64,000 nt of DNA, from NCBI RefSeq assembly GCF_014874065.1, contig NZ_JADBEE010000002.1, positions 496,001 to 560,000 on the forward strand, given 5' to 3'. The translations under genes and the position numbers were made by a program. Below the pieces are notes generated by a model, which saw only the letters and a list, made by a program, of their open reading frames with translations, searched no databases and was not told the DNA's origin. Positions 13,938 through 49,218 of the stretch are shown piece by piece. The DNA comes from Nesterenkonia halotolerans (GTDB lineage Bacteria > Actinomycetota > Actinomycetes > Actinomycetales > Micrococcaceae). Within the stretch, counting starts at the first letter, position 1, and every line of letters begins with the position of its first letter.

Positions 13938-14999
13938 CTAGGAGCGCCGGATCATCTGATCGATGATCCTGACGCCACACCGCCGTGGTTCTCCGTAGGC
14001 CGGGTAGAGGAACTCGCTGATATCTGCCGTGGGCACCACGTTCGAGACCGTGGCACCTTCGGCACTGTCCAGGGAGGGAGTCTGGATGTCCACCGCGGTA
14101 CCGGTCAGTCCGGGGAAGGCCCACATGGCATCGATGGCCAGATTCTTGATGTCATCGCTCAGGTCCGCAAACACATCCACCGAGAACCCCCCACCGGCTT
14201 CGGCTTCAGGGGCTGTGCCCAGCACGCGGATCTCCCCCTCGCTCAAAGTTTGGTCCAGGCTCACGCCCATCTGTGCAAGGTGCTCTTGGCCCACGGCGAG
14301 AACTCTGGATCGAAGATACTCCGAGGACTCCCGGCGTTCCCTTTCCTTCTTCAACAGCTGGCGCACCGTGGACTGCCCATCCCCGGCGATGTAGAACGGT
14401 ACTCGCGCCACAGCTGCTACGGATTCTTCGGCCACGACGTAGACACGCAGCGCCAGGTTCGGCGAGTAGTGCTCGATGTGGATCAGCTGATTGACACTTT
14501 TCAGATGCGCCAAGGCCTCCGTCGAGCGGCTCCACTCGCGGCGTAGGTCTTCTTTGGAGGAGACGGCGAGCGAGGTCACCGGTTTGGCCCGCTCCGAGGC
14601 GGGCCGCGCGGTCACGGGAGTGCCGGATTGCTCGCGATACTTATCCGCAGCATCAAACTGAGACACGTGGAAAGACCGGCCCGCGGAGGTGCTGACTGAA
14701 GACGCACGGAGATACTCGTGGCCGAGCTCCACAGACTGTGTGGCGTCCCGAGCCTGACCGCTCACAAGCGTGGTGGTGCGGCTGTCGACGCCGCCAATGC
14801 GCCGCCCGCGATGCACGAACAAGAAGCTCGGCCCCATCTTGGTGGGTGTGACGCGGCGACGCTTCTGCGCGTCCTCCAGCAGAATCCCCTGATGCTTCAT
14901 GGTGTTCTTCCACTGGTGCATCTCATGTCGCTGAGGTTCGATGACCTCGCTGATGAACTGCGCAACGGGGGAATCGGATTGGTGCACCTCAGATGACAT
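13938..14999 (-). CDS. ATP-grasp protein resembling the cyanophycin-synthetase/D-Ala ligase-type fold
   Basis: A 353-residue protein. The C-terminal half has a segment typical of cyanophycin-synthetase-type ATP-grasp domains: LRVYVVAEESVAAVARVPFY then IAGDGQSTVRQLLKKERERR, followed by IRVLGTAPEAEAGGGFSVDV and a late D-Q-PSLDS region. The N-terminal third (KRRRVTPTKMGPSFLFVHRG) is unfamiliar. ATP-grasp enzymes join a carboxylate to an amine through an acyl-phosphate. At the edge of the glycopolymer locus it might add an amino acid to a uronic or ulosonic acid, but this is inference. The ATG at 14999 has a leaderless -10 box (TATCCT) and is divergent from the IMPase gene; the upstream in-frame extension to 15047 is unlikely. 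Confidence 0.7.
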   Translation of the reverse strand: MSSEVHQSDSPVAQFISEVIEPQRHEMHQWKNTMKHQGILLEDAQKRRRVTPTKMGPSFLFVHRGRRIGGVDSRTTTLVSGQARDATQSVELGHEYLRASSVSTSAGRSFHVSQFDAADKYREQSGTPVTARPASERAKPVTSLAVSSKEDLRREWSRSTEALAHLKSVNQLIHIEHYSPNLALRVYVVAEESVAAVARVPFYIAGDGQSTVRQLLKKERERRESSEYLRSRVLAVGQEHLAQMGVSLDQTLSEGEIRVLGTAPEAEAGGGFSVDVFADLSDDIKNLAIDAMWAFPGLTGTAVDIQTPSLDSAEGATVSNVVPTADISEFLYPAYGEPRRCGVRIIDQMIRRS

Positions 15000-15006
15000 A
15001 CCGGCC

Positions 15007-15012
15007 AGGATA
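15007..15012 (-). promoter_or_regulatory. -10 box of a leaderless promoter (ATP-grasp gene)
   Basis: On the minus strand TATCCT ends 7 nt before the ATG at 14999. It lies 9 bp from the plus-strand -10 box at 15022-15027, so the two divergent promoters overlap. Confidence 0.5.
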
Positions 15013-15021
15013 TCCCGCGCA

Positions 15022-15027
15022 TAGGAT
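15022..15027 (+). promoter_or_regulatory. -10 box of a leaderless promoter (IMPase/NeuB operon)
   Basis: TAGGAT ends 8 nt before the ATG at 15036, with no Shine-Dalgarno sequence. It is divergent from and interleaved with the promoter at 15007-15012. Confidence 0.5.
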
Positions 15028-15035
15028 GGGCAGTG

Positions 15036-15770
15036 ATGGAACAGCACACCCAGACGGCCCGCGCCGCCCTCATCGAGGCCAGTGACCTCCTGGATTCCCT
15101 GATGCCGAAGCTGGATGCCCTGCGCACTGACGTGGAGCTCAAGGCGGATGACACTCCGGTGACCGCGGCTGACCTGCTGGTGCAGCAGAAGCTCGAGACA
15201 CTCCTGCGGGCAAGGCTGCCCGATCTCACGTTTGTCGGTGAAGAAGAATCAGCCGGGTGGGAAGCGGAACCTACCGGTTGGGTGGCAGTCGTAGATCCCA
15301 TTGATGGCACGGAGAACTTTGCGTCGTCACTGGTCGAATGGGGCACTGCCATCAGCATCTTCCACACCGGGGTCCACTCCGCCAGCATGATCACGCTGCC
15401 GGAGCTTCGCCGTCGCATCATCACCGGTGACACGCTGGCCTATGCGCAGTCCCGGATCGCAGGGTTCTCCTCAGGGATGAACCAGACGCTGGTAGATCGG
15501 ATCGCGCAGGCTCCCCAAGCTCGAATCTACGGTGCCGCTGTGTACAATTTCTTCGGTGTCGTCACCGGTCGTTTGGCCTCGTTCACGAACCCGGTGGGGG
15601 CGTACTCCTGGGATGTGCTTGCTGGCCTGTCCCTAGCCCGAGAACACAACTGTGAGGTTTTTGTCGATGACGAACCGTACGACGGACGATATCTCGAGCC
15701 TGGCCGCAGATATCGCGTCGAGGTACACCACCGATACGATCGTCATCCTCGGCAAGGGTCCCTCGGCTGA
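15036..15770 (+). CDS. Inositol monophosphatase family protein
   Basis: A 244-residue Mg2+-dependent sugar-phosphate phosphatase. It shows the family metal-site motifs FVGEEES (about residues 69-75), VVDPIDGTENFASS (about 87-100) and the C-terminal GAYSWDVLAGLSLA (about 188-201). It heads the glycopolymer operon, directly before a NeuB-type synthase, so it may remove phosphate from a sugar or ulosonic-acid phosphate precursor; this is inference. The last 104 nt overlap the next gene out of frame, so its C-terminal 35 residues share DNA with the NeuB fusion's N-terminus. Confidence 0.85.
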   Translation: MEQHTQTARAALIEASDLLDSLMPKLDALRTDVELKADDTPVTAADLLVQQKLETLLRARLPDLTFVGEEESAGWEAEPTGWVAVVDPIDGTENFASSLVEWGTAISIFHTGVHSASMITLPELRRRIITGDTLAYAQSRIAGFSSGMNQTLVDRIAQAPQARIYGAAVYNFFGVVTGRLASFTNPVGAYSWDVLAGLSLAREHNCEVFVDDEPYDGRYLEPGRRYRVEVHHRYDRHPRQGSLG

Positions 15771-17238
15771 GGAAGTCCATTCCCGGGTCTTCGAGGGCAA
15801 CCTGACCATCGGCATCAACGATGCCGAGCGCATCCACCCGATGGACATCTCCATCTTCTATGAGGACTGGGTGGCCGAGTCAGTCCAGGCCGAAGGAATG
15901 CGTTCCCAGGCCTACGTCACTTCTACCGATTTGATGGCGCCGGGACGCAGAATCGTGAAGCTGCCTTTCCAGCCACTGAGCAACGATGAGGAAGACCTCA
16001 TCCTGCTGCGGTTCCAGAACCGCGAAGAGATCGCCATCGAGGAAGCCATCTTCCTCACCGCACTGGAGGTCGCCCGCACCGTCGCCGAGTCCAAGGGACG
16101 GACCCAGACCGTGTACATGGTGGGCTTCGACTTCACCCCCGCCTCCGGCCACGCCAAGTCCGCGACGACGACGTTCGCCCCGGACCTGGACAGTCGGCGG
16201 GCCGCGGGCATCGCGATGCAGGAGTATGTCCTCAGGAATGCCCTCTACACGCTGGAGGACTCCGAGCTGAGCGTGCACCACGTGGGCACCAAGGACTTCT
16301 CCAGCCTCGGACCTAAAGAGCTCAACGAACAGCACAACGTGTCCGTCACTGCGCCGGCTCAGCCAACCGTGCGCGCCGCAGCGCCCGAGACCCGTGGGGT
16401 GGAGGTCACCGCGGAGATCACGACCAACCACTTCGGGGATTTCGACCGGCTCGAGAAGCTTGTCCGCGCTGCCCATGAAGCCGGAGCAGACTGGGTGAAG
16501 GTGCAGAAACGCGATGTCGCCTCTTTCTACACCCGCGAGCAGCTGGCACAGCCCTACAGGTCCCCTTTCGGCTCCACCTTCGGCGAGTACCGCAATCAGT
16601 TGGAGCTCGACCACGAGGGATTCCGCTTCCTGGACGATCTATGTGCGGATCTCGGCATCGGCTGGTTCGCCTCAGTGCTCGACCAGCCCTCCTTTGAGTT
16701 CATGCTCGATCTCAACGTGCCGATGATCAAGCTGCCCTCCACGATCTCCGAGCACAAGCAGTACCTGAGCCACGTCGCTCAGCGATACACCGGATCACTT
16801 GTCCTCTCCACTGGCATGACCGACCACCGCTACGAGGAATGGGTCCTGGAGACCTTCAAGAAGCAGGACAAGCTCTATCTGCTGCACTGCAATTCCGCCT
16901 ATCCCACTCCCGATGAGCACACCAATGTGGGTGTGGTGCGGCATTACACCGAACTTGCCAAGGAACACCCGCAGATCGTCCCCGGATACTCGAGTCACGA
17001 TTTCGGATGGATGGCCTCAGCGCTTGCGGTCGCTGCTGGTGCGCGCATGGTCGAGAAACATGTGAAGCTCGGAAACACAGAATGGGCGCACTTCGATGCC
17101 GTCGCCGTGGACCTCAACAGCGATGATTTCACCGAGTACGTCGCCGCGATCCGCAAAGCCGAGGTGCTTGTGGGCTCCACCCAGAAACAAATCACGGACA
17201 GTGAACACCACAAGTACCAGGTGCCCTCGTCACGCTGA
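15667..17238 (+). CDS. NeuB-type nonulosonate synthase fused to an N-terminal DUF115-like domain
   Basis: A 523-residue two-domain protein. Residues about 1-215 begin with a Rossmann-like TIVILGKGPSAEEV loop, then NLTIGINDAERI and TVYMVGFDF, resembling the DUF115/MptE-like domain of glycan loci. Residues about 240-515 are a NeuB (PEP-dependent sialic acid synthase) barrel: VTAEITTNHFGDFDR, GADWVKVQKRD, IKLPSTISEHKQYL, LHCNSAYPTPDE, YSSHDFG and ARMVEKHVKL. NeuB enzymes condense PEP with a ManNAc-like sugar or sugar phosphate. The usual C-terminal antifreeze-like (SAF) domain is absent. The ATG at 15667 gives a 104-nt overlap with the IMPase gene. The sugar acceptor is unknown because no NeuC or legionaminate/pseudaminate genes are present. 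Confidence 0.85.
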   Translation: MTNRTTDDISSLAADIASRYTTDTIVILGKGPSAEEVHSRVFEGNLTIGINDAERIHPMDISIFYEDWVAESVQAEGMRSQAYVTSTDLMAPGRRIVKLPFQPLSNDEEDLILLRFQNREEIAIEEAIFLTALEVARTVAESKGRTQTVYMVGFDFTPASGHAKSATTTFAPDLDSRRAAGIAMQEYVLRNALYTLEDSELSVHHVGTKDFSSLGPKELNEQHNVSVTAPAQPTVRAAAPETRGVEVTAEITTNHFGDFDRLEKLVRAAHEAGADWVKVQKRDVASFYTREQLAQPYRSPFGSTFGEYRNQLELDHEGFRFLDDLCADLGIGWFASVLDQPSFEFMLDLNVPMIKLPSTISEHKQYLSHVAQRYTGSLVLSTGMTDHRYEEWVLETFKKQDKLYLLHCNSAYPTPDEHTNVGVVRHYTELAKEHPQIVPGYSSHDFGWMASALAVAAGARMVEKHVKLGNTEWAHFDAVAVDLNSDDFTEYVAAIRKAEVLVGSTQKQITDSEHHKYQVPSSR

Positions 17239-17315: not shown

Positions 17316-20300
17316 ATGAAGTTCAAGATTGTCAATTACCAGGCCCATCGAATCAGCGGCTGGGTCTATGACCCCGAGACGGATCAGGGCAATGCAGTTG
17401 TGGACCTTGTGGTCAACGGAGAGGCGGTCTCTGCGCTGACCTGCAACATCTTCCGCGATGAGCTCTCGGCTGAAGAATTCAGCACCCGGAACGTGGGCTT
17501 CCTCGGCACGCTCCCGCCCCAGTTCTGGACCGGTGAGGGACACGATGTCGCCCTCGTCCACCGTGGCTCAGGGCAGGTGCTTACTGAGACGCGGATGGAC
17601 ACCAACGACTCCCGGGTGGTCGGCGCAGACGACCTGAGTGCCGACTACAAGGTCACTGCAGAGGGGAAGGTCGCCGGGTGGGCCAGCGCCGAGAAGCAGC
17701 CGGCCTATGCACGCGTCACCGTGGATGGCACGGTCATCGATGAGGGACGGACTGATAGGCGAGAGCTCCCGTGGAAGCGTGGCTCACTGAAGTTCGATGC
17801 GCCGTTTGGGTTTATGCATGCCACCCAGATTCCGTCCACCTTCTTCGACAACCAGATGCACCGCGTGCAGGTCTTTGCAGGCAATTCGCCGCAGGCTCCC
17901 GTGCCGGTTCTGGACTACACGATCGAACTTGCGGCAGAACACAGCGACGCCGCGGCCCTAGAGGCCCAGCGGCTCCAGCAAGACGCTCCCGATACCTCTT
18001 CGACCTGGCTGAAGTCCCCCCGGATTCGTGAAGAGATCCGCGTGGAGCGCTTCGCGCTGACAGAGTGCTACGCGTCCATCACTTTGACAGGTGAGATCCA
18101 GCACCGCAGGCTCGTCCTGCGTCTGGGCGAGGCAGAAGTGATCCTGACAGCCGTGACAGAGCCTCCCGAGGGGGATCCGGAAGCTGCCGGTACCCAACGG
18201 TACGCGGGTGAGATCCCCCTTGAAGGACGGTTCTCCGAGTCTGTTCCGCTGTTCACGCCAGGTGCGGATGTCGCCAGTACCTATGACGTCCGGTTGGGGG
18301 ACACCACAGGCCGCCGACCGGCACGTCTCCCTGAGACTCTCGTGCAGGACACCACAGGTGACTTCCTGCTCTCTGAGACGGTGCTCGATGGCGGGGTCTT
18401 CACCGGCTGGGCCTTCCACACGGCGGGACTTGATTTCCCCGTAGAACTGGTCCTCCGCGAGATCACCAACACCGGGCAGACCGAGGTGCACCGCACGTCC
18501 GCCACACTGAAGAACAAGCATGCAAAGCTGCAGCATGGGATTCGAGAGGCTGGCTACGCGTTGGCGCTGCCATCCTCGGTCCTGGTTCGGCGAAGTGCCC
18601 ACCTGCAGCTCCTGGCGGTCCACGCCCGAGGCGAACGGGTCCTATGGGAAGACCGCGCCTTCTACGCCACCAACCATTTCCTGCTGGCTCAGGCCCTCCA
18701 GGCGTCCTCCTCTGCTCACGCCCTTGAGCTCCTGGGCAACGCCCGCAGGGCGGGACGTAAGAACTTCGTGGAATCATTCCTCGGAACCTATAAGCATTCT
18801 CGGGTCGGTATCACCCTCGACCAGCTGGAGACGGCGATAGCCGAGCAGAAGCAAAGTGCCGGTGCGACGCTTGAACCAGCTCACGGCGCGATCTGGTATT
18901 GGGTCCATGAGCTTCGCACCAACCCAGGCCGACTCAAGTGGTTCACCACCAATGCCATCCGCAACCGCAACGGTGGCGCCCGAGACGTGCTTGCCTACGC
19001 AGCCTCCAAGGGCCGCTACGAGTTCGGCCAGCTTCATGGGATCCTCGAGTCCTACCGCGCCGGTCTCTTCAAGGATGCGGCTGGGCAGATGCTCGTAGAC
19101 GAGCACTGGAAGTCGGGCATATTGGCCATGGCCCAGTTCCTCTTCGCTGCTCCCCGAGACGAGACGGACCAGCTCGACGCGCTGACGCTCTACTCCATGA
19201 TCGAGGAGTGGCGTGGAGTGGTAGATATCAAGGGCGCGGACCGCGCCTTCTATGGTGACCTGCTCCGCTGGCGCGGCGAATTCGAGGAATCGGCACGAGT
19301 CCTCACCGCCGAAGACCGTGACGCGCAGCATGACTACTCGCAGAACCTGTTGGCGCTCAATGCCGTGAATCCGCACGTCACAGGAATCTCCAGCTACGCC
19401 GATGCGTGGCTGGCTGGCTTCAATGAGCTTCTGGAGGAGGACGGGGTTGCCCCGATCTCAATCCGGGACGACCACATTAGCTTCTACAACGTCACCACCA
19501 ATCTGCCACCGGCGCCCACTGGCGATGACGCGCCGTTGGTCACCGTGATCATGCCGATCTACGAACCTAGCGCGGCCACCAACGTCGCAGTGGACTCCCT
19601 GCTGCGTCAGACCTGGCGAAACCTTGAGATCATCATGATCGACGATTGCTCCCCTGAGCGGGACGAACATGGCCGGCCCACGGCATACCGTCAGCAGCTG
19701 GAGGACCTCGCAGCCCGAGATCCCCGAATCCGACTGGTTCTGAATGAGGTCAACCGCGGGTCCTACTCCGTTCGCAACGAAGCACTGGACCTCGCCACGG
19801 GCGATTTGATCACCGTGGCGGACAAGGACGACTGGCACCACCCGCAGCAGATTGAGCTCCAGGTTCGAGACTTCCAGGCGTCCCCGGAGCGTGTGGCCAA
19901 CATGACCAACTGGGTCCGGGTGGATGAACAGCTCAGCTTCGTGCTCCGTTCCGCGACGGGACGGGTGGTCTACCCCTCCATGGCCTCGCTCATGTTCCGA
20001 CGCGACCCGGTGCTGACCGACCTTGGCTACTGGGACACCGTTAGAAAATCTGGGGACTCTGAGTTCAAGAGCCGCATCGAGAACTACTACGGAATCAACG
20101 TGGAGCCCATCACTAGGGCACCTCTGGCCTTCGCCTTAATGGACGGGGCAAACCTCACCCGAGATGACATGGGAGTCGGTTACCTCGCACCAGAACGCCG
20201 GGCGTACCTTCGTGGTTACAAGAGCTGGCATCGAGAGATCCGAGAGTCAGATGAGTCGCCCTACATGCCGAAGGCGCCCCAGGAGCGTCGCTTCGTCGCG

Positions 20301-21413
20301 CCTGCTCCGTATCTGCCGGGAACCCGACGGGAAGGGCCGGCGCAGTACGATGTGGTCTTCGCTTCGGAGTTCGGCTTCCTCGCCGGAAACTCCACCTCTC
20401 TCTTCAATGAGATCTCGGTCTGTCTGAACGCGGGATTGCGGGTGGGCGTGATCCCGTTCCAGAACGGACTGATCCCCTCGGCGTCCAAGCGGCAGTTCAG
20501 CCGCAAAATCGATGACCTGGTGCTCACGGGACAAGTGGATCGGTTGTCCCTGGACACCGTGGCCGAAGCTGACCTTCTTGTAGTGCGGTGGCCCACGGCT
20601 GTGCAGATGGTTCCCGATATGGTTGCCGGACTCAAGCCGCAGAGAGCGGTCATCGTGTCCAACCACCCGCCATTCGAGCCGAGCGGGGAACGGCGCAGCT
20701 ACGACATCGGAGTCGTGACTCGAAATATCGAAAGGCTATTCGGCGTGCGACCTCTCTGGGCTCCGCAGAGCGAGCAGATTGGAGCCATGATCTCCCCGCT
20801 CATGCCCGCGTCAGATATGACGAGCTTTTCCTGGAAGGGGATCATCGAGCTCAAAGAGCAGGCGACCCAGAATCGCTTCAGGGCGGGTCGGCCAACCATC
20901 GGGCGGCACGCACGCGACGACGCAGCGAAGTGGCCCTCGGATCGCAAAGTCTTCAAACAGGTGTACCCAGCCGATGGGTCAGCCAACGTCTGCATCCTCG
21001 GTGGCACCAAGGTGCCCGTGCAAAAGGGCTTCCTCTCAAAGAACCCGCCCTCCTGGGAGGTCTACGCGTTCAACGAGATCACCGTGGACGAGTACTTGGC
21101 GGAGAAGCTGGACTTCTTCGTGTATTTCCACAGTGACGGCTGGCTTGAGGCATTTGGCATGGCGATCCTGGAGGCGATGAGCTATGGCGTGGTCTGCGTG
21201 CTGCCACGGCACTTCGAACCAGTGTTTAAGGACGCGGCGATCTACGCGGGACCAGACCAAGTCACTGACGTCATCAACGAGCTGTGGGACTCGCGGCGGT
21301 ACGCAGAGCAGCAACAGCGCGCTGTGAGATTCATCGAAGAGGAATGTACTCCGGAGGCGTACCTAAGGCGCCTAGCCGGTCTAGGCGTACAGGTGAAAAA
21401 CAATGAAGGCTAA
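17316..21413 (+). CDS. Giant multidomain glycosyltransferase (GT2 plus C-terminal GT4-like)
   Basis: A 1365-residue protein. Residues 1-about 440 are beta-rich and unfamiliar, with repeated modules of the type VxGWxxxxxxxP (for example KISGW-like and TGWAFHTAG) that may bind glycan. Residues about 440-720 are helical. A GT2 domain starts near residue 741 (LVTVIMPIYEPSAATNVAVD, then IIMIDDCSPERD and TVADKDDWHHPQQIE). The end (about 1010-1360) resembles a GT-B/GT4 half, with FVYFHSDGWLEAFGMAILEA and GVVCVLPRHFEPVF. It is probably a bifunctional polymerase or sequential transferase for the surface polymer. A shorter relative lies at 36298-38796. Its stop overlaps the next gene by 11 bp. Confidence 0.85.
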   Translation: MKFKIVNYQAHRISGWVYDPETDQGNAVVDLVVNGEAVSALTCNIFRDELSAEEFSTRNVGFLGTLPPQFWTGEGHDVALVHRGSGQVLTETRMDTNDSRVVGADDLSADYKVTAEGKVAGWASAEKQPAYARVTVDGTVIDEGRTDRRELPWKRGSLKFDAPFGFMHATQIPSTFFDNQMHRVQVFAGNSPQAPVPVLDYTIELAAEHSDAAALEAQRLQQDAPDTSSTWLKSPRIREEIRVERFALTECYASITLTGEIQHRRLVLRLGEAEVILTAVTEPPEGDPEAAGTQRYAGEIPLEGRFSESVPLFTPGADVASTYDVRLGDTTGRRPARLPETLVQDTTGDFLLSETVLDGGVFTGWAFHTAGLDFPVELVLREITNTGQTEVHRTSATLKNKHAKLQHGIREAGYALALPSSVLVRRSAHLQLLAVHARGERVLWEDRAFYATNHFLLAQALQASSSAHALELLGNARRAGRKNFVESFLGTYKHSRVGITLDQLETAIAEQKQSAGATLEPAHGAIWYWVHELRTNPGRLKWFTTNAIRNRNGGARDVLAYAASKGRYEFGQLHGILESYRAGLFKDAAGQMLVDEHWKSGILAMAQFLFAAPRDETDQLDALTLYSMIEEWRGVVDIKGADRAFYGDLLRWRGEFEESARVLTAEDRDAQHDYSQNLLALNAVNPHVTGISSYADAWLAGFNELLEEDGVAPISIRDDHISFYNVTTNLPPAPTGDDAPLVTVIMPIYEPSAATNVAVDSLLRQTWRNLEIIMIDDCSPERDEHGRPTAYRQQLEDLAARDPRIRLVLNEVNRGSYSVRNEALDLATGDLITVADKDDWHHPQQIELQVRDFQASPERVANMTNWVRVDEQLSFVLRSATGRVVYPSMASLMFRRDPVLTDLGYWDTVRKSGDSEFKSRIENYYGINVEPITRAPLAFALMDGANLTRDDMGVGYLAPERRAYLRGYKSWHREIRESDESPYMPKAPQERRFVAPAPYLPGTRREGPAQYDVVFASEFGFLAGNSTSLFNEISVCLNAGLRVGVIPFQNGLIPSASKRQFSRKIDDLVLTGQVDRLSLDTVAEADLLVVRWPTAVQMVPDMVAGLKPQRAVIVSNHPPFEPSGERRSYDIGVVTRNIERLFGVRPLWAPQSEQIGAMISPLMPASDMTSFSWKGIIELKEQATQNRFRAGRPTIGRHARDDAAKWPSDRKVFKQVYPADGSANVCILGGTKVPVQKGFLSKNPPSWEVYAFNEITVDEYLAEKLDFFVYFHSDGWLEAFGMAILEAMSYGVVCVLPRHFEPVFKDAAIYAGPDQVTDVINELWDSRRYAEQQQRAVRFIEEECTPEAYLRRLAGLGVQVKNNEG

Positions 21414-22251
21414 GAAGACATCGATCAAGCACCTGGATAGCGTTCCACGCCACAGCTGGGAGGGACCTCAGGACCTCGATGTCGAGGAACGGGGTCTTTA
21501 CACAGAGCATCTCGACGGTGAGCAGTACGATTTCATCTTCGCTCCCAAGCCTGAAACGGGCCGCCTCATCGTGTTCTTCTCCGGAGATGCTCGGCGCAGC
21601 AAATTTGAGCCGCCAGTGTTCCAGCGGTGGAGCTGGGCATCGAAGTTTCCGGCAAGCTGCCTGTACTTCTCAGACCCGGCCCTTTACCACCACTCCAACC
21701 TTGGACTCGCATGGTACGCGGGGAACAACCACGGCGATTACCTAGAACACATCGCCAAGATCACCCGATCTATCGTCCAGCGAATGGGAACAGCGCATGG
21801 TCAGGTTTTTTCCTACGGCTCCAGTGGTGGCGGATTTGCTGCTCTCCGATTTGCGCGGTATTTCAAGGGCCTGCGGGTGATCGCAATCAATCCCCAGACG
21901 GACCTCTGGGCGTATCCGGTGAAGTGGACCAACCGCTTGGCCAGAGCTTGCTATGACGCGAAAACCCTTGGCGATGTCCCCGTGGATCAGCAGTACAAGT
22001 TCTCGGCCCTGGATCCAGCCGTGCTCCACGGTGCCCGCGGAATTTTCCTCGGGCAGAATGAGCAGGACCGGGATCACTACGAGAAGCACTTCGAGCCGTT
22101 CAATGACTACGTTGAGAGTCTCGGACTCCGCGACAGACTCACCAGCCGGGTCTTCTCCGACGCCTCAGGACACGCTGGCGCGGAGAACCAAGAGACGTTC
22201 GACGAAATTATCGGTTTTCTGAAAGCGCCCGAGCCTGAAGCGAAGGAGTAA
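21403..22251 (+). CDS. Alpha/beta hydrolase-like protein of the glycopolymer locus (paralogue 1)
   Basis: A 282-residue protein with a nucleophile elbow GSSGGGFAALRFARYF (about residues 140-155), a preceding LIVFFSGDARR strand and a candidate catalytic His in DASGHAGAE near the C-terminus. This fits an alpha/beta-hydrolase or acyl-transferase (Asp2-like) fold. It overlaps the giant glycosyltransferase by 11 bp, so the products are made together. A related protein at 35374-36246 shares GSSGGGFAAL and the AINPQT/AFNAQT segment. It may add or remove acyl groups on the polymer; no substrate can be read from sequence. No signal peptide is visible. Confidence 0.7.
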   Translation: MKAKKTSIKHLDSVPRHSWEGPQDLDVEERGLYTEHLDGEQYDFIFAPKPETGRLIVFFSGDARRSKFEPPVFQRWSWASKFPASCLYFSDPALYHHSNLGLAWYAGNNHGDYLEHIAKITRSIVQRMGTAHGQVFSYGSSGGGFAALRFARYFKGLRVIAINPQTDLWAYPVKWTNRLARACYDAKTLGDVPVDQQYKFSALDPAVLHGARGIFLGQNEQDRDHYEKHFEPFNDYVESLGLRDRLTSRVFSDASGHAGAENQETFDEIIGFLKAPEPEAKE

Positions 22252-23706: not shown

Positions 23707-23734
23707 GGTCGGCCTTCTTTCGTGGAGCTGGGGG

Positions 23735-24775
<1,041 letters not shown>

Positions 24776-41443: not shown

Positions 41444-41451
41444 CGACCGCT

Positions 41452-42198
41452 GTGAGCAGCTCAGAGAAGACCTCAGCAGAGACCCTCGACCCGATCACCG
41501 TGGTCATCCCCGCCCGCGCCGGCAGCGAGCGGGTGCCGCAGAAGAACACCAAACCCTTCGCGGAGATCCCCGGCGGGCTGTTGCAGCTGAAGCTGCAGCA
41601 GCTGGCCCAGGTGCAGGAGATCGACAAGATCATCGTCTCCTCGAATGACCCGCTGGTGCTCAGCGTGACCGAGGAGTTCGCCAAGACCACCGGCGGCAGC
41701 CGATTCGTCCCGCTGGAGCGCCCGGATGAGCTGGGCCGGTCCTCCACGCCGATGAGTCAGTTCATCGACTACGTGGCCACCCTGGAACCCACGGGCACCA
41801 TGTGTATGACCCACGTGACCCACCCGTTCCTGCGCGCGGACTACTTCCGGGAACTCATCCGCGCCTGGCGCGAGGCGGTCGACGCCGGCCACGACAGCCT
41901 GCTCACCGTCACCAAGCTGCAGACCTTCCTCTGGGATGAGAACGGGCCGTTCAACTACGACCCGACCGCGGAGAGGTGGCCCCGCAGCCAGGACATCAAG
42001 CCGCTCTACGAGATCAACCACGGCGCGTACTTCATCCCGTTCGCACGCATGCGGGAGGTCGGCGACCGTGTCGGCACGAACCCGAAGATGTACGAGCTTC
42101 CGGAGAACGCGGTCCTGGACATCGACTGGCCGGAGCAGTTTCAGCTGCTCGAGGACATGGCACTGGCGCGGGCGCACCGCGGCGTGAGCCTGCTCTGA
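41452..42198 (+). CDS. Acylneuraminate cytidylyltransferase-type enzyme (second copy)
   Basis: A 248-residue CMP-sugar synthetase-like protein. The CTP-binding loop VIPARAGSERVPQKNTKPFA is followed by IDKIIVSSNDPLVL, MTHVTHPFLRADYF, INHGAYFIPFARM and DIDWPEQFQLLED. It parallels the enzyme at 33984 motif by motif (THVTHPFL/THVTSPFI, NHGAYFIP/NSGVFLAP, DIDWPEQ/DIDWNED), so the two are paralogues that may activate different acids. The GTG start at 41452 matches a leaderless -10 box. The gene is divergent from a GT2 gene and convergent with an ATP-grasp gene. Confidence 0.86.
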   Translation: MSSSEKTSAETLDPITVVIPARAGSERVPQKNTKPFAEIPGGLLQLKLQQLAQVQEIDKIIVSSNDPLVLSVTEEFAKTTGGSRFVPLERPDELGRSSTPMSQFIDYVATLEPTGTMCMTHVTHPFLRADYFRELIRAWREAVDAGHDSLLTVTKLQTFLWDENGPFNYDPTAERWPRSQDIKPLYEINHGAYFIPFARMREVGDRVGTNPKMYELPENAVLDIDWPEQFQLLEDMALARAHRGVSLL

Positions 42199-42227: not shown

Positions 42228-43424
42228 CTAAGCTTCGCTGGCTCCTGCGGCCTTCTCTGCTCGTGCCTTCTGAAGCTTCCGGTACGCCTTGCGGCCGACT
42301 CTCAGCAGTGCTGGGGCCAGGGGAGCAGTCTTCGCCCTCGCCCGGCGTGCCGCCGCCAGGTGGGCGTCCCGCAGGTACGCGGTGATCGCGTCATCCTCGC
42401 CGGTGTCGTCACCGTTGACTCGCAAAGCCTTCTGCGCCTCGGCCAACCGGGCTCCGCCGAGGCTGCCGCGGTTGTAGAGGAAGTGGGCGAAGCGCTGGTA
42501 CGCCGTCAGCCCGATCAGCGGATAGGAGGCCAGCTCCTCATCCTCGGTGTCCTGCAGAGCTTTGCTCCAGCCCGTGAGCGGTTCGCTGTCCTCACCGTTG
42601 AGCCGCTTCCTCGCCTCAAGGAACAGGTGATCGAACCGGGCGAGCATCTCCTCGCTGTAGGTCACGGTTCCCCGCACCTCGGCCCCGGAGGAGAACGTGA
42701 ACTCGCCGAAGTAGGGCCCGTCCACCGTGTCGTAGAGATCCACACGGACGAACGGCGCATCGGTCATCTCTGAGAGCTCGATGGCCCAGCGGGAGAGCAT
42801 CACCGCAGAGCGCGGCACCACCGGCGCCCCGGGCTGGATGTCCCTGAGCCGGAGGAAGTAGTCGCGCCCCACGGTGAAGGGCTTCAGATCGCCGTCGAGC
42901 TTCACCATCCGCGGCGGTGACGTGTTCCTGTCGATCTGCGCGACCATCGCGATCTGGCCCTGGAACACATAGAACTTGTAGTCGAAGGGCACCGTCCCGG
43001 GCTGGGCGCCGTGGAGGAACTCCTCCACGATCCAGGCGGGGTCCTTGCGGCGGAACTTCGCTGCCACTGCCTGTTGCTTCTCTCGGATCTCCTCCAGGGT
43101 CCACTCGCGCAGGGCCATGTTGTCGAAGTAGCGGTCCTCGCCGACCCGCTCGAGCAGCATGACCCCTTTGGCGGACCAGCCGTGCGCGAACTTCAGCGCG
43201 ACCCGGTCTCCGAGCACCTCGGTGGTGATCTCCTCGGTGGAATGCAGGATGGCGTGCTGGGTGGGCAGGCCGAGCCGGGCGTCGCCCAGGGTCTTGTTCT
43301 CCAGCAGGCTGTGCACGTAGGTCTTATTGGACAGGTCCCGGCGCTGCTGCGTGCCGCGCCGCTGGTACTCGGCGTTCGCGAACCTCAGAAAGGGCGACTC
43401 GCGGGCGGATTTCTCGAGTGTCAT
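42228..43424 (-). CDS. TupA-like ATP-grasp protein
   Basis: A 398-residue protein of the TupA-like ATP-grasp family (TupA is the teichuronopeptide synthesis protein of Bacillus halodurans). Landmarks are the start region DLSNKTYVHSLLENKTLGDA, VALKFAHGWSAKGVMLLERV, WIVEEFLHGAQPGTVPFDYK, FYVFQGQIAMVAQIDRN, APFVRVDLYDTVDGPYFGEF and TFSSGAE. These provide the ATP/Mg2+ site. A basic C-terminal tail is present. It may attach an amino acid to a uronic or ulosonic acid of the polymer. The ATG at 43424 follows GGAAGA; a longer frame to 43517 exists but is poorly supported. Confidence 0.82.
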   Translation of the reverse strand: MTLEKSARESPFLRFANAEYQRRGTQQRRDLSNKTYVHSLLENKTLGDARLGLPTQHAILHSTEEITTEVLGDRVALKFAHGWSAKGVMLLERVGEDRYFDNMALREWTLEEIREKQQAVAAKFRRKDPAWIVEEFLHGAQPGTVPFDYKFYVFQGQIAMVAQIDRNTSPPRMVKLDGDLKPFTVGRDYFLRLRDIQPGAPVVPRSAVMLSRWAIELSEMTDAPFVRVDLYDTVDGPYFGEFTFSSGAEVRGTVTYSEEMLARFDHLFLEARKRLNGEDSEPLTGWSKALQDTEDEELASYPLIGLTAYQRFAHFLYNRGSLGGARLAEAQKALRVNGDDTGEDDAITAYLRDAHLAAARRARAKTAPLAPALLRVGRKAYRKLQKARAEKAAGASEA

Positions 43425-43584
43425 GGCGTCTTCCGGTCTTTCCACATCGTCATGAGTCAGCTCTGCGAGCTGGCGGGCGGGGATCGATAGCTGGCACCGG
43501 CGCTGGTGAGGACTCACCCCAGGTTACAGGGCTGTCCTCCCACGCTGACCTCCCGTGTCGCCTCGCGTGGAGCCCTGTGCTGAG

Positions 43585-43590: not shown

Positions 43591-43598
43591 CGCCAGTG

Positions 43599-45578
43599 AT
43601 GCTGAAACCACTAGTCTTCGCCGCTGAGCTTGGCCGACGCACCGTCGGTGCCGCCACCGCCGTCCCCGGAGTCGACCTCGCGCTGGCCCGAGCGGTCCTC
43701 GCCACCGGCAACTTCGGCCCCTCCCAGCTGGAAGTGGCGATGACGGGGGAGCGCTCTGCGGTGGGCAGCTTCCAGGACAAGGCCGCCACCGTGCTGCTGG
43801 AGGCCAACCCGCGCGGCGCCTCGGCGCTGCTGGCCCGGCTGGATATCGACACCGCCCAGGACGCCGAGAAGCTCGAGCGGCTCGCCGGGCAGTACTTCAA
43901 GCTGAAAAAGTACGACGCCGCGCTGGCCATGCGCCGGCGCGCGGTGCACCTGGAGCCGCAGAGCGCGCTGCGCTGGGTGGCGCTTGCCCGCTCCCTGCTG
44001 CGCGCCACCGGCGGGCACATCGTCCATGACCCGGTGGCCGGACTGGTCGAAGGACCCCTGCCACGCACCGAGGAGGCCCGGGAGGCGCTGGCACGTGCCG
44101 AGCAGCTGGACCCGGAGAACCCCTTCGTCCTGCATGAGCGCGGCGAGCTGGAGTTCGAGCACGGCGACGCCGCCGTCGGCCTGGACCTCATGGAGCGCGC
44201 GCTGGAGCGGCAGAACCGCGCCACCTGGTGGACGGACCTGGGCTCGGCCTACCGCAAGCCGCACATCGCCGACTACGACCGCTCGCTGGACGCCTATGAG
44301 AAGGCGCTGAAGCTCAAGCCCACCAGCCCCACCGCCTTCCGCGGAGTCATCATCATGGGCTGCCGCGCCGACCAGGACTGGCCGCGGCTCTGGCGCAGCG
44401 CCGAACTCTTCGAATCCGCCCGCGGCCGCAGCACCGCCGCGAAGCTGGACCTGGCACGCACCCTGCGCAAACTCTTCACCGCGGCCCCTTCCGAGCAGCA
44501 GATCGACGAGGCGCTCGCCGCGCTGGACGCCGCCCACGCCGTCGGTCTGCGGCTCTCCTGGCCGACCACCTCACTGATCGTCTACCGGCTCCAGTTCCTG
44601 CAGCGGATGCGCAGCTCCTTCGCGCTGCGCCGCGAGCTCGCCCAGCGCAGCGTGACCTGGTTGGGCACCAGCTCTGCCGGACACAGCCGGCACCGGCAGA
44701 AGCTGCTCTCCGCACTGATCTACCTCGGCCGCGAGGACGAGGCGCTGAAGCTCATCGACCCCATGCCCTGGACGCCCTACCAGCAGGTGGACCGCCAGCG
44801 GCTGGAAAAGATGGCCGCCGACACCCACCTGATCCGCGGCAACCTCACGCCCTACCAGGAGTACTCCGCGCAGCGCCGCGCCGAGCTGCCCCTGCCGGGG
44901 GAGCCCCAGATGGAGACGCTCATCCGGGACAAGCGGATCGCCGTCGTCGGCCCTGCCGATACCGGTGACCGGCTCGGCGAGATGATCGACGGCTACGACA
45001 TCATCATCCGGCCCCGGCTGATGACCGAGTTCGATGAGGAACAGCGCGCCCGGCTCGGCAGCCGCACAGACATCGCCTACTTCTCCGGACGCGACATCGA
45101 CGACTTCCGCGAGGAGGCCTCCGCCGCCGTGGAGGCGGGACGGCTGCAGATGGTGATCGGTCGCGGGCTGAGCATGGCCTCGGCCGGGGAGGACCTGCCG
45201 GACTGGCTGCGCTTCTACAGCCACGACTACTCGCTGGGCTTCCACGGCCCGCCGATGGGGATCGGGCGGATCCTCTACGACGTGCTGCAGTTCCACCCGG
45301 CGCAGGTCAGCTTGTTCAACATCGACTTCTTCAGCGGGCAGAAGGCCTTCGGCAAGGGCTACCGTCCGGCGAAGGACCAGCAGATGGGGCCGTACTCGAT
45401 CGTCAACGAGGTGGTGCTCGCCCATGATCTCGCCTTCGAGCACCGGCTCACCAAGGCCATGGCGGCCAGCGGTGTGCTCGACGCCCAGGGCGTGGCCGGC
45501 GAGGTGCTCGGACTGACCGAGGAGCAGTACATCCAGCGCCTGGAGACCTCCTCGGCGCTGACCACCCGGACCGCGTGA
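43599..45578 (+). CDS. TPR protein with C-terminal sialyltransferase (GT29)-like domain, copy 1
   Basis: A 659-residue protein. Residues about 60-420 are TPR-like helical hairpins (QYFKLKKYDAALAMRRRAVH, SLDAYEKALKLKPTSPTAFR). Residues about 445-620 carry a segment that resembles sialylmotif L of GT29 enzymes: KRIAVVGPADTGDRLGEMID, then GYDIIIRPRLM and LGSRTDIAYFSGRD. A motif-S-like stretch follows (GPPMGIGRILYDVLQFHPAQ, then VSLFNIDFFSG). GT29 enzymes transfer sialic acids from CMP, and two CMP-acid synthetases lie nearby, so I infer a ulosonate transferase. The similarity is by eye and could reflect the broader DUF115-like group. The next gene, 4 bp downstream, has the same layout. Confidence 0.75.
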   Translation: MLKPLVFAAELGRRTVGAATAVPGVDLALARAVLATGNFGPSQLEVAMTGERSAVGSFQDKAATVLLEANPRGASALLARLDIDTAQDAEKLERLAGQYFKLKKYDAALAMRRRAVHLEPQSALRWVALARSLLRATGGHIVHDPVAGLVEGPLPRTEEAREALARAEQLDPENPFVLHERGELEFEHGDAAVGLDLMERALERQNRATWWTDLGSAYRKPHIADYDRSLDAYEKALKLKPTSPTAFRGVIIMGCRADQDWPRLWRSAELFESARGRSTAAKLDLARTLRKLFTAAPSEQQIDEALAALDAAHAVGLRLSWPTTSLIVYRLQFLQRMRSSFALRRELAQRSVTWLGTSSAGHSRHRQKLLSALIYLGREDEALKLIDPMPWTPYQQVDRQRLEKMAADTHLIRGNLTPYQEYSAQRRAELPLPGEPQMETLIRDKRIAVVGPADTGDRLGEMIDGYDIIIRPRLMTEFDEEQRARLGSRTDIAYFSGRDIDDFREEASAAVEAGRLQMVIGRGLSMASAGEDLPDWLRFYSHDYSLGFHGPPMGIGRILYDVLQFHPAQVSLFNIDFFSGQKAFGKGYRPAKDQQMGPYSIVNEVVLAHDLAFEHRLTKAMAASGVLDAQGVAGEVLGLTEEQYIQRLETSSALTTRTA

Positions 45579-45582
45579 CCGC

Positions 45583-47340
45583 ATGGCGCTGAGTCTGCAT
45601 GGGCTGCGGGTGAAGATCGCCGCCGCCGCCGTGATCAAGTACGGGGCCCGCCGGGTCTCTGAGCTGCCAGGGGGCCAGCGTGCCGTGCTGGGTGCCGCCG
45701 GGCGGATCCGGCCGGGTACGCAGGACGAGGAGTCCGGGTCCTACCGCGGACTGCTGGCCCAGATGCTGGGCGAGTCCGTGAACGCCGACGACGACGGCGC
45801 CGACCACGGCCTGGTCTACGACCCGATCGCGGGACTGATCTCGGGTCCGGTCAGCTCGGCGGAGTCGCTGGCGTCCGCGGAACATCGGCACGCTGCGGAC
45901 CCGTCCGACCCTGCGGCGCAGTGGAAGCTGGGCCGCGCGCTGTTCGCCGCGGGGGAGACCACGCGCGGACTCGAGCTCATGGACGCCGCCGTGACCGCCG
46001 AGCCCACTGCGGCCAAGCTGGTCGCCCTTGCGGCGGCGTACCGGAAGCCCTATGTGGCTCAGTTCGAGACGGCCCTGGGGCTGTACCAGCAGGCGCTGGA
46101 ACTTAACCCGGCGGATCTGCGTGCCGTGGAGGGCATCATCAACGCCGGAGCGCGCTCCACCTTCGACTGGCCGCTGATCTGGGCCGGAGCGGCGCAGCTC
46201 AAGCCCGGACGTGGTCCGCTCGCGGATGCTGCGTTCTGGGCGCGAGTGGAGCCGCTGTTTGACCAGGAGCCTTCTGCGGAGAGCATCGCCGAGGCCGAGT
46301 CGGCGCTGGAGGCTGTCGCGGGGACGGCGCACCGGCTGCACCAGCTGGTGCTGGAGGTGCTGATCGTCCGGCTGCAGTTCCTACGCCGCTTCCGGGTGGC
46401 CGCGTCGTTGCGGGATGCCATGGCAAGGAACCGGATCAAGGAGCTCGGCGGCATTCCGCTGGAGTCCCCGCTGTGGTTCAAGCACCTCCTGGGCGGCTAC
46501 GCCCAGCTGGGGCAGCTGGAGAAGGCCACCCGGGCCGCAGCCCGGCCTCCAGTAGACGCCGCCACAGACCTGCGCCGACTCCAGCTCGCGAAGCTGCGCG
46601 CCGACGTCGCAGTCTTCTCCGGCGATGCGGGTCCCTTGCAGGTCCAGGCAGCCGACCGCCGTGCCGAGCTCCCGCTGCCCGGGGATGACGCCATGCTGGA
46701 CTTGGTGCAGGGCAAGCGGGTCGCCGTCGTCGGGCCCGCCGCCACCGAGGAGCAGCTCGGTGAGCCCATCGAGTCCTATGACGTCGTGGTGCGGACCCGG
46801 GCGCGCGGTGACGTCTCCGCGGAGGAGGCCCGGCGCAGCGGCACCCGCACCGACATCGCCTACTACAACGGCCGCGACCTGGGGTCCATGTGGGCGGATG
46901 CGGCAGAGGCGGTGGCAGCAGGGTCACTGAAGCTCGCCGTGGCCCGGCCGTTCTACGCGGCCCTGGTGGAGGAGCAGCCCGACTGGCTGCGCTTCACCCG
47001 CAGCGAGTTCGGGCTCTACTTCCGCGGGACCTCGCTGGGGATCCAGCGCATGGTCTATGACCTGCTCCAGTTCGCGCCTGCTGAGATCGCACTCTTCGGT
47101 GCCGACTTCTACGCCGGAGAGCGCAGCTACCCGCCGGGGTACCGCACGCACAGCGGCTTCGGTCCGCATTCCCCGCTCAATGACATCGTCATGGTCCATG
47201 ACCTGGTGTTCGAGCGCCGGCTGATGCAGGCGTTCTGCGCCACCGGGATCGTGGTGCCGCAAGGCGTCGCCGCGGAGGTGCTGGACCTGCCGGAGGCCGA
47301 GTACCTCGACCGGCTCGAACGCAGCTCCGGGCTGCACTGA
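45583..47340 (+). CDS. TPR protein with C-terminal sialyltransferase (GT29)-like domain, copy 2
   Basis: A 585-residue paralogue of the preceding protein, beginning 4 bp after its stop. TPR-like helices cover residues about 85-350 (ALGLYQQALELNPADLRAVE). The C-terminal domain has KRVAVVGPAATEEQLGEPIE, SYDVVVRTRARGD, RSGTRTDIAYYNGRDLGSMW and the motif-S-like GTSLGIQRMVYDLLQFAPAE then IALFGADFYAGERSYPPGYR. The shared order suggests tandem duplication followed by divergence, perhaps for different linkages or acceptors. No signal peptide or membrane segment is visible. Confidence 0.75.
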   Translation: MALSLHGLRVKIAAAAVIKYGARRVSELPGGQRAVLGAAGRIRPGTQDEESGSYRGLLAQMLGESVNADDDGADHGLVYDPIAGLISGPVSSAESLASAEHRHAADPSDPAAQWKLGRALFAAGETTRGLELMDAAVTAEPTAAKLVALAAAYRKPYVAQFETALGLYQQALELNPADLRAVEGIINAGARSTFDWPLIWAGAAQLKPGRGPLADAAFWARVEPLFDQEPSAESIAEAESALEAVAGTAHRLHQLVLEVLIVRLQFLRRFRVAASLRDAMARNRIKELGGIPLESPLWFKHLLGGYAQLGQLEKATRAAARPPVDAATDLRRLQLAKLRADVAVFSGDAGPLQVQAADRRAELPLPGDDAMLDLVQGKRVAVVGPAATEEQLGEPIESYDVVVRTRARGDVSAEEARRSGTRTDIAYYNGRDLGSMWADAAEAVAAGSLKLAVARPFYAALVEEQPDWLRFTRSEFGLYFRGTSLGIQRMVYDLLQFAPAEIALFGADFYAGERSYPPGYRTHSGFGPHSPLNDIVMVHDLVFERRLMQAFCATGIVVPQGVAAEVLDLPEAEYLDRLERSSGLH

Positions 47341-47428
47341 TGTGCCGCGTGAGCCTCGCGCCGCTGCTGGCTTTACCTGCGCGCCCCCACGATCTTCCCC
47401 AGTCCCTCAGTGAAAGTGACATGACACC

Positions 47429-48172
47429 GTGATTCGAATCCTGCTGGTCCGCCATGGCGAGACGGAGTGGAACAAGACCCACCGACTCCAGGGGCAGTCC
47501 TCGATCGACCTCGCCGAGACCGGCCGCGCCCAGGCTCAGGCTGCGGGGCGCTACGTGCGCTCGCAGAACCCGGCCCAGGGCTACGTCTCCACGCTGGAGC
47601 GCACGGCGCAGACCTACGCCGAGTTCGGCCTGGACCACGCTCCCGAGGTCGTGGGAGACCTCGCGGAGCAGCATCTGGGGGAGTGGGAAGGCATGAAGAC
47701 CGCTCAGGCCAAGGAGGCGTACCCGGAGCTGTACAAGGCGTGGAAGTCAGGGGAGGGAACGCCGCCCGGCGGGGAGGCTCCCGAGGCGCTGGTGGAACGG
47801 ATGAGCGCCGCCTTCTTCCGCGTGGTGCGCGCCGCCGCAGACGTCCCGGCCACGCAGTCCGCGGATGAGAAGTACCCGCTGCGCACCGCCGTCGTCGTCT
47901 CACATGGCACTTCCATCAAGGCGCTGCTGGAAGCGCTGGGGCTGATCGACCGGACCCGGGTGATCTCGGTGACGGCGGGTGCGGTCAGCGTGATCGACGT
48001 GCCGCTGCATGGCGGGCCGCTGAGCAGCTCGTTGCCCAACGGCGGGCTGGAGGAGTCAGAGCCACGGGAGGAAGAGGCGCAGCGGATCCGTGCGCTGACC
48101 GACAAACAGATCAGGGCCTACGCGAAGCTGCGGATGTTCAACCTCTCCCCAGAGGTGCTGGCACTCGTCTAA
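47429..48172 (+). CDS. Histidine phosphatase family protein
   Basis: A 247-residue phosphoglycerate-mutase-like phosphatase. The catalytic LLVRHGETEWNKTHRLQGQS (His at about residue 9) is followed by the conserved Arg in STLERTAQTYAEF, the LAEQHLGEWEGM Glu, and the second His in VVVSHGTSIKALLEALGLI. The extended length and C-terminal charged tail differ from true glycolytic mutases, so a phosphatase role is more likely. It lies between the GT29-like pair and the TagD genes; whether it serves the polymer or general metabolism is open. Confidence 0.87.
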   Translation: MIRILLVRHGETEWNKTHRLQGQSSIDLAETGRAQAQAAGRYVRSQNPAQGYVSTLERTAQTYAEFGLDHAPEVVGDLAEQHLGEWEGMKTAQAKEAYPELYKAWKSGEGTPPGGEAPEALVERMSAAFFRVVRAAADVPATQSADEKYPLRTAVVVSHGTSIKALLEALGLIDRTRVISVTAGAVSVIDVPLHGGPLSSSLPNGGLEESEPREEEAQRIRALTDKQIRAYAKLRMFNLSPEVLALV

Positions 48173-48200
48173 CCCCAGCGGGGCTTCCGGTGGCGGCGAT

Positions 48201-48722
48201 TTAACCCCGCCGTGGAGGCGGAGGGAAGTGAGGCTGATCGTCACGGATGGGCGCGAACCGGGCGGTCTCTTGACGCTTATGGCCCTGTTCCTCCGCTTCC
48301 GCCTCGGCCTTGTACTGGATCGCTTCGAAGAGCAGGTCCCGACGGATCTGGCTGGTGGAGGTGCCCTCGGTGCGGGGGAGGTAGACCAGTTCGCAGTGGT
48401 CGCGCAGGTGCTCGAACCGCGGGGAGCCTTCCCAGTCGCTGCCCATCACGACCATGTCGATGTCGAGGTCGTGGACGTCGTTGACCTTCTGCGACCAGCT
48501 GGTCTCCGGGACCACCATGTCCACGAACCGGATGGACTCGAGCATCATCTTGCGGACTTCGTAGGAGTGGTAGCTGGGCTTCTTACCGGGCTTGAGCTCG
48601 TTGAACTCATCGGTGCTCAGCGCCACGATCAGGTAGTCCCCGAGGTCCTTGGCGCGCTGGAGCAGGCGGATATGGCCCCAGTGCAGGAGATCATAGGTGC
48701 CATAGGTCAGAACGCGGCGCAT
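48201..48722 (-). CDS. TagD-like glycerol-3-phosphate cytidylyltransferase (copy 1)
   Basis: A 173-residue nucleotidyltransferase with the HxGH-type motif YGTYDLLHWGHIRLLQRAKD (about residues 7-26), VALSTDEFNELKPGKKPSYH and the C-terminal YLPRTEGTSTSQIRRDL, a close match to TagD/GCT enzymes that make CDP-glycerol from CTP and glycerol-3-phosphate. A charged C-terminal tail of about 35 residues is extra compared with the usual about 130. It lies 37 bp downstream of a second TagD-like gene on the same strand and would supply CDP-glycerol to the TagF-like enzyme at 54743. Confidence 0.9.
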   Translation of the reverse strand: MRRVLTYGTYDLLHWGHIRLLQRAKDLGDYLIVALSTDEFNELKPGKKPSYHSYEVRKMMLESIRFVDMVVPETSWSQKVNDVHDLDIDMVVMGSDWEGSPRFEHLRDHCELVYLPRTEGTSTSQIRRDLLFEAIQYKAEAEAEEQGHKRQETARFAPIRDDQPHFPPPPRRG

Positions 48723-48759
48723 TGTGCTCAGCGGACCTTCGCGGCTGGTCGGTGCACGA

Positions 48760-49218
48760 TCAGAGCGAGACCATGCGGGAGTCGTCGACGACCGTGACCT
48801 CGGCAGGGCGGTCCACGGCGTCGACCAGGAGGTCGCGGCGGATCTGGGAGGTGGAGAAGCCTGGGGTGCGCGGCAGGAACACGACGTCGCAGAACCGGCG
48901 CAGGTGTTCGAAGCGTTCGGAGCCCTGCCAGTTGTCCCCCATCACCACGGTGTCGACGCGGAAGCGGCGGATGTCTTCGACCTTCTGCTCCCAGCTCTCC
49001 TCGGGGATGACCAGGTCCACGTAGCGGACGGCCTCGAGCATGGTCTTGCGGACTTCGAACTGGTGGTAGCTGGAGCGTCGGGCGCCTTTGGCGGTGTTGA
49101 ACTCGTCGGTGCTGGCGCCGACGATCAGGTAGTCGCCCTGCGCTCGTGCGCGACGGAGCAGGTTGATGTGACCCCAATGGAGGAGGTCAAAGGTGCCGTA
49201 CGTGAGAATGCGCTTCAT
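48760..49218 (-). CDS. TagD-like glycerol-3-phosphate cytidylyltransferase (copy 2)
   Basis: A 152-residue paralogue of the neighbouring TagD-like protein. It has YGTFDLLHWGHINLLRRARA, GASTDEFNTAKGARRSSYHQ, VVMGDNWQGSERFEHL and FLPRTPGFSTSQIRRDL. Two copies in one operon may mean two different CDP-alditols (for example CDP-glycerol and another CDP-polyol) or simple duplication. A promoter with -35 TTGTTA and -10 TATAAC lies about 60 bp upstream. Confidence 0.9.
   Translation of the reverse strand: MKRILTYGTFDLLHWGHINLLRRARAQGDYLIVGASTDEFNTAKGARRSSYHQFEVRKTMLEAVRYVDLVIPEESWEQKVEDIRRFRVDTVVMGDNWQGSERFEHLRRFCDVVFLPRTPGFSTSQIRRDLLVDAVDRPAEVTVVDDSRMVSL

Follow-up and report, generated by a model that had tools for sequence, protein, structure and literature searches.

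The systems closest to the locus described here are the phosphoenolpyruvate (PEP)-dependent nonulosonate pathway (NeuB, phosphatase and NeuA, for example the 3-deoxy-D-glycero-D-galacto-non-2-ulosonic acid (Kdn) 9-phosphate route) and the 3-deoxy-D-manno-oct-2-ulosonic acid (Kdo) pathway (KdsA-KdsC-KdsB). Here we analyse a surface-glycan locus at 13938..49218 of a 64,000-nucleotide window, positions 496001-560000 of a Nesterenkonia halotolerans contig, within a 2.97-Mb genome. By Pfam and NCBIfam matches the locus holds two separate gene sets, modules A and B, each of which looks capable of making sialic-acid-like acidic sugars. Both synthases are fusions with one extra domain, and the single-polypeptide state is kept in other genomes. 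We suggest, with a probability of about 0.62, that two parallel routes encoded here each yield a cytidine monophosphate (CMP)-activated 3-deoxy-2-ulosonic acid, and that both acids end up on a surface glycan.

Module A resembles the PEP-dependent pathway in that a CMP-sugar synthetase and a phosphatase accompany a NeuB domain with the NHxG, K and H motifs (judged by eye). However, its NeuB lacks the SAF domain and has an added N-terminal domain, and its phosphatase is inositol monophosphatase (IMPase)-like instead of HAD. Module B recalls the Kdo pathway through its condensing enzyme, HAD phosphatase and, often, KdsB-type synthetase. However, the condensing enzyme is of the DRE-TIM aldolase type, not KdsA, and bears a predicted sialyltransferase-fold domain. 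It shares its superfamily and an aligned D/H/H metal site with DmpG (PDB 1nvm) and 3dxi, and the RDGGYY signature with 3dxi; it is set apart by Tyr at the position of H21 of 1nvm, an extra C-terminal domain and a glycan-synthesis context. This C-terminal domain is 10-13% identical to the Maf flagellin glycosyltransferases and GT42 sialyltransferases (Cst-I/II) and, unlike them, is fused to a synthase. The TPR proteins of module A are similar to bacterial GT29 sialyltransferases in their motif-L-like and HxxxxE/D motifs. Bacterial GT29 sequences, 23 in number, were described before (Petit et al. 2018, PMC5811610); the GT29-like domain here differs in being fused to a TPR region. An Enterobacter roggenkampii plasmid listed in PMC10433991, on Escherichia coli group 3 capsule clusters, carries a cassette of CMP-synthetase, IMPase and NeuB fusion, and similar E. 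coli loci add rml genes, although these are ABC-transporter capsules of Gram-negative bacteria.

The module B aldolase is encoded at 32347..33987 (+). Its TIM barrel (about residues 12-320; PF00682, 97.8 bits) is followed by about 200 extra residues, of which 343-546 form the C-terminal domain. It is followed by a NeuA/PseF-type CMP-sugar synthetase (33984..34676, +; PF02348, 41.0 bits) and a HAD phosphatase (34673..35329, +; PF00702, 40 bits). At least 553 aldolase relatives were found among 590 pattern matches, and the best 80 named loci were kept and studied. Hosts of the fusion include Halomonas, Marinobacter, Psychrobacter, Pseudomonas, Rhodobacterales, Bacillus, SAR11, SAR86 and Prochlorococcus. 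The match reaches residue 533 or beyond in 79 of these best 80 loci (L120 is cut by its contig, and L116 is split in two frames). Within the named collection, Nesterenkonia supplies the closest copies (97% and 93% identity); a further one from this genus, at 69%, stands level with Marinobacter and Halomonas at 70%. No relative was found in a viral contig search.

Together with one Leisingera plasmid these loci form a set of 81, three of them from Nesterenkonia. In 79/81 the aldolase has a CMP-sugar synthetase no more than 3.5 kb away, and in 71 no more than 300 bases away; it is KdsB-type in 49 and NeuA/PseF-type in 30, types assigned with profiles that were built from open reading frames (ORFs) of the same loci and so locate those genes but give no independent classification. 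The two loci without it are L120, cut by its contig, and L155 of Prochlorococcus. A HAD relative is present in 73/81 fetched stretches, mostly close by (9 kb off in L093, on the other strand in L084 and L142); the Leisingera plasmid has the three genes one after another. No synthetase was seen at 42 control loci of other DRE-TIM matches, in stretches averaging only 3.6 kb. In Halomonas alkaliantarctica a single contig bears two aldolase cassettes, separated by about 16 kb (L085, L087). In the window the aldolase is adjoined by a 337-residue protein without a Pfam family (31235-32248), a relative of which also adjoins the aldolase in L080, L081 and L084.

The aldolase domain of this enzyme matches 3dxi, a 'putative aldolase', at E 1.6e-46, with 4-hydroxy-2-oxovalerate aldolases more distant. 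In the alignment Asp20, His208 and His210 occupy the positions of the metal ligands D18, H200 and H202 of 1nvm, and Tyr23 that of its catalytic base, His21. All four columns are at least 95% identical in a 53-row alignment. From this alignment and the kept metal-site residues, a pyruvate aldol reaction is our best guess. Alternatively, the enzyme might make another CMP-activated carboxylate by a citramalate- or homocitrate-like Claisen reaction, rather than an ulosonic sugar; the HMGL-like superfamily does include acyl-CoA-dependent synthases, which appear here as NCBIfam matches under the cut-off, and the Tyr in place of His21 would suit such a change. We nevertheless regard this as very unlikely. 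In NCBIfam the top-scoring models, at 109.9 and 94.9 bits, are 4-hydroxy-2-oxovalerate aldolases, neither reaching its cut-off (for TIGR03217 94.9 against 286), and the aldolase is linked to KdsB-type synthetases and GT29 genes. HpcH/HpaI-type proteins, a pyruvate aldolase type, also co-occur in or near the cassette in 7/81 loci (L130, confirmed by Pfam, L088, L105, L118, L121, L127 and L132), directly after the aldolase in five.

In module A the NeuB fusion comprises an N-terminal domain (15667..16371, +), recognised in alignments and without a Pfam match in the window copy, and, in the same ORF, a NeuB domain (16405..17238, +); an alternative start lies upstream at 15652. About 235 extra residues precede the NeuB domain and no SAF domain follows it: all 16 copies compared (12 Nesterenkonia, 4 Enterobacteriaceae) end within 6 residues of HHKY. 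The NeuB domain scores 158.8-161.4 bits with PF03102 (cut-off 22.1), but stays below the N-acetylneuraminate synthase equivalog TIGR03569 (145 bits against 399.65), the match stopping at 275/329. The N-terminal domain shows the motifs GKGPS...NDxE...GFDF. The cassette starts with the IMPase-family phosphatase (15033..15770, +; PF00459, 76 bits), and the module further includes a second NeuA/PseF-type synthetase (41482..42198, +; PF02348, 40.7 bits) and two TPR proteins with GT29-like C-terminal domains at 43596..47340 (+; 43596-45578 and 45583-47340). Both window synthetases thus exceed the PF02348 (CTP_transf_3) cut-off of 22.6.

Among 30 Nesterenkonia genomes the NeuB fusion is matched in 19 (fragmentarily in G016), while in a class sample its N-terminal domain occurs in 2/394 genomes, both Nesterenkonia; a phage search with this domain found no relative. 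The fusion and the TPR-GT29-like proteins occur together in 19 genomes, the TPR proteins alone in one (G029) and neither in 10 (Fisher p 3.7e-7). For the fusion and the 41482-42198 synthetase, with relatives at 60% identity or more in 17/30 genomes, its own included, the counts are both 16, NeuB only 3, synthetase only 1 and neither 10 (p 9e-5). These p-values are descriptive, the genomes being related and some incomplete. Of the three genomes with the fusion and without this synthetase, the third being G016, G004 and G013 have a KdsB-type synthetase instead. G002 and G019 have, next to IMPase and the NeuB fusion, a KdsB-NeuA fused protein flanked on either side by a TPR-GT29-like gene; such KdsB-type and NeuA-type synthetases in one polypeptide are found at L219:12010-13569 and L231:6060-7730. 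The IMPase adjoins the fusion in 4/9 other regions examined (L227 stops at a contig edge), and hence is not a constant cassette member. A TPR-GT29/synthetase fusion suspected in G013 proved to be a long open frame, and the idea that both CMP-synthetases serve one synthase was dropped, as the 41482-42198 type is present in 17/30 genomes and a 38-40% identical second copy in 4/30, with KdsB-type replacement in G004 and G013.

The aldolase, in contrast, is present in 6/30 Nesterenkonia genomes and missing from 24. Set beside the 19/30 of the NeuB fusion, this indicates that the two modules are separable and differently distributed; each has a CMP-sugar synthetase and a phosphatase of its own. The first-pass annotation had read the region as a single locus for CMP-ulosonic acids; its two synthase types stand, and the single locus is refined into these modules. 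This bears on another explanation, namely that one locus builds a single Kdn-type wall teichulosonic acid mixed with glycerol phosphate. Such Kdn polymers are known from actinobacteria, and two TagD-like glycerol-3-phosphate cytidylyltransferases close the locus at 48201..49218 (-; 48201-48722, g3p_cytidyltrns 172.2 over a cut-off of 165.4; 48760-49218, CTP_transf_like 74.1), with a CDP (cytidine diphosphate)-glycerol glycerophosphotransferase-like gene (TagF/TagB) nearby, outside the locus, at 54743..55885 (-; PF04464, Glyphos_transf, 129.6 bits). Some kilobases from the TPR pair, L214, L216, L220, L224 and L225 have TagD-like ORFs, and L218, L220, L222 and L225 have TagF-like ones. However, since module B is missing from 24/30 genomes, a single fixed polymer would not require the two synthases. 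Nothing favours Kdn over another acid; KdsB-type and NeuA-type synthetases replace one another, and no exporter or wall ligase was matched in the scanned ORFs (no ABC exporter, Wzx/Wzy or LCP ligase in the interval; EamA is the sole transporter family seen). We consider the single teichulosonic acid unlikely.

Relatives of the NeuB fusion outside the genus occur in capsule clusters. A plasmid search with the N-terminal domain alone returned three records from E. coli and Enterobacter that carry the fusion (E 6e-23 to 9e-22), annotated as N-acetylneuraminate synthase family protein in two and without annotation in the third. In four loci (L241/L245, L243, L244, L246) the genes for the CMP-synthetase, IMPase and fusion follow one another, except that in L246 an O-acetyltransferase gene separates the CMP-synthetase from the IMPase. 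All four belong to ABC-transporter capsule clusters, and three of these stretches have annotated rml genes. The IMPase relative directly before the fusion in E. coli and Enterobacter capsule loci scores 158-164 bits. Window and L241 copies are 58% identical in the NeuB half (156/269) and 26% in the N-terminal domain (58/220). With one copy as blastn query, 15/5426 complete E. coli genomes were matched. PMC10433991 places the E. roggenkampii plasmid among group 3B-like clusters and, from their gene content, we infer that the E. coli loci belong to group 3. For its new clusters the paper counts CMP-sialic acid and myo-inositol as candidate precursors and leaves the structures open; in our reading the IMPase belongs to the ulosonate route rather than to inositol.

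The link of the TPR proteins to GT29 is remote. PF00777 (GT29) matches 13/21 relatives of the C-terminal domain (best E 8.3e-5), and gives no match for 45583-47340 at 0.001, nor for its C-terminal domain 46675-47337 at E 10. A sequence search of PDB finds GT29 enzymes of three families at E 0.006-0.36, ranked below two ABC-transporter sequences at E 3e-4. Sialylmotif VS reads HxxxxE in 18/21 and HxxxxD in 3/21 relatives; a self-defined motif-L-like pattern is present in 21/21, and motifs S and III were judged by eye alone. TPR matches in both proteins are weak and below cut-off. In the class sample strong matches to the GT29-like domain come from two Nesterenkonia alone, with three others short and weak, and a plasmid search found no relative. 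With a profile of the window domain, genes were found in 8/81 aldolase loci, none from Nesterenkonia: four Marinobacter genes directly after the aldolase, one directly after the HAD gene (L098), one directly before the aldolase (L086), and two 2-4 kb upstream of it (L126, L127). Of the seven scanned with Pfam, those of L086, L098, L126 and L127 exceed the PF00777 cut-off (27.0-62.6 bits against 23), and those of L099, L108 and L113 have no PF00777 match. As the window profile thus finds PF00777-passing genes beside the aldolase, it links the aldolase to the GT29 family and also the window TPR C-terminal domains to GT29, so that these appear remotely GT29-like.

For the fused domains, the predicted structure of aldolase residues 343-546 (m9a92255349f2) matches Maf, which places this domain in a predicted Maf/GT42 sialyltransferase fold; its H411 and N394 are conserved in at least 95% of 53 rows. 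The NeuB N-terminal domain possibly has a Maf/MptE/GT42-like Rossmann fold, although a PDB profile search with it found nothing relevant. HHalign of this domain against the aldolase C-terminal domain gives probability 38.8 (E 3.2e-4, 129 collinear columns) with the Enterobacteriaceae copies and 9.6 without them, which is suggestive of a relation but not proof. The GT29-like domain shows no HHalign link to the two fused domains (probabilities 8.1 and 3.8), and therefore we do not claim a common origin for it. Weak MptE-like matches occur in 12/50 aldolase C-terminal domains, in three of three Enterobacteriaceae N-terminal domains scanned and in 0/16 from Nesterenkonia; PF01973 on the E. coli and Enterobacter copies is weak (E 0.05). 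In keeping with such matches, the fused domains could be nucleotide- or substrate-binding or regulatory (MptE/SteA-like), with separate GT29-like or GT2 proteins doing all transfer. Next to the predicted Maf/GT42 fold this seems to us rather unlikely, though the least so of the alternatives.

Hence, from gene content, fusions, conservation, linkage and the predicted fold of the aldolase C-terminal domain, we suggest the following substrates and reaction directions for the two parallel routes. In module A, the genus core, the SAF-less NeuB fusion would condense PEP with an aldose, free or phosphorylated, the IMPase would take off the phosphate, and the 41482-42198 synthetase would form the CMP-sugar, which the TPR-GT29-like proteins may transfer to the final polymer. 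In module B, which is optional, the DRE-TIM enzyme would condense pyruvate with an aldose phosphate, the HAD enzyme would dephosphorylate the product, and the 33984-34676 synthetase would form the CMP-sugar. The fused Maf/GT42-fold domain, or a GT29-like partner, would then bind and probably transfer it. We tentatively extend this, with somewhat less than even confidence, to a widespread undescribed CMP-ulosonic acid route. In it a pyruvate-using DRE-TIM aldolase with its own sialyltransferase-fold domain would replace the PEP-dependent synthase, so that a single polypeptide would produce the sugar and also act on its CMP form. The NeuB fusion without SAF domain would have evolved independently as a synthase-transferase, with a partner domain of like kind attached at the opposite end of the protein.

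The locus holds further genes. A large GT2-containing glycosyltransferase of 1365 residues (17316..21413, +; PF00535) is followed by a serine-hydrolase-like protein (21403..22251, +; GSSGGG motif by eye). A second one lies at 35374..36246 (+); both lack Pfam matches, resemble each other by eye and are possibly O-acyl-modifying. Genes for deoxythymidine diphosphate-L-rhamnose (22282..25736, by Pfam) comprise an RmlC-RmlD fusion in one ORF (-; 22282-23784), RmlB (-) and RmlA (+). GT4 and GT61 glycosyltransferases (25994..29877, +; by Pfam) have a GC content of 0.50-0.51, and the whole segment 24000-30000, with the RmlA, GT4 and GT61 genes, 0.50-0.55 against about 0.66 around it; it is possibly a recent acquisition. 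A WecC-type uridine diphosphate-sugar dehydrogenase (29962..31218, +; by profile match), a GT2-containing glycosyltransferase (36298..38796, +; by Pfam), an EamA-family transporter (39268..40158, -; PF00892, 137 bits), a GT2 glycosyltransferase (40194..41264, -; by Pfam), a TupA-like ATP-grasp (42228..43517, -; PF14305, 49 bits) and a histidine phosphatase (47429..48172, +; PF00300, 142 bits) complete the set.

Most enzyme families named in the first-pass annotation are thus borne out by Pfam and NCBIfam: NeuB, the DRE-TIM aldolase, two cytidylyltransferases, HAD, IMPase, the rhamnose genes, WecC, TagD and TagF/TagB. Of its two ATP-grasps the TupA type holds, and the second, cyanophycin-synthetase-like, stays below the NCBIfam cut-off (63.7 bits) and has no Pfam match. 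Profile searches uphold its NeuB and both cytidylyltransferases, whereas its TPR proteins with GT29-like C-termini stand in part, through their relatives. The first-pass annotation makes no mention of either synthase being a fusion. On sequence grounds the analysis supports its proposal that the locus makes CMP-ulosonic acids, and plausibly transfers them, by means of two synthase types and GT29-like domains.

In titles and abstract starts of the open-access PMC literature we found no description of the aldolase cassette. If our reading is true, marine, halophilic and other bacteria (Halomonas, Marinobacter, Psychrobacter, SAR11, SAR86, Prochlorococcus) have a pathway without an assigned product in the literature found, and surveys based on NeuB alone would miss it. 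Both fusions are directly testable enzymes. For the Enterobacteriaceae group 3-type capsule clusters the same reading would make a specific prediction, namely that the 'inositol' phosphatase is a member of an ulosonic acid pathway.

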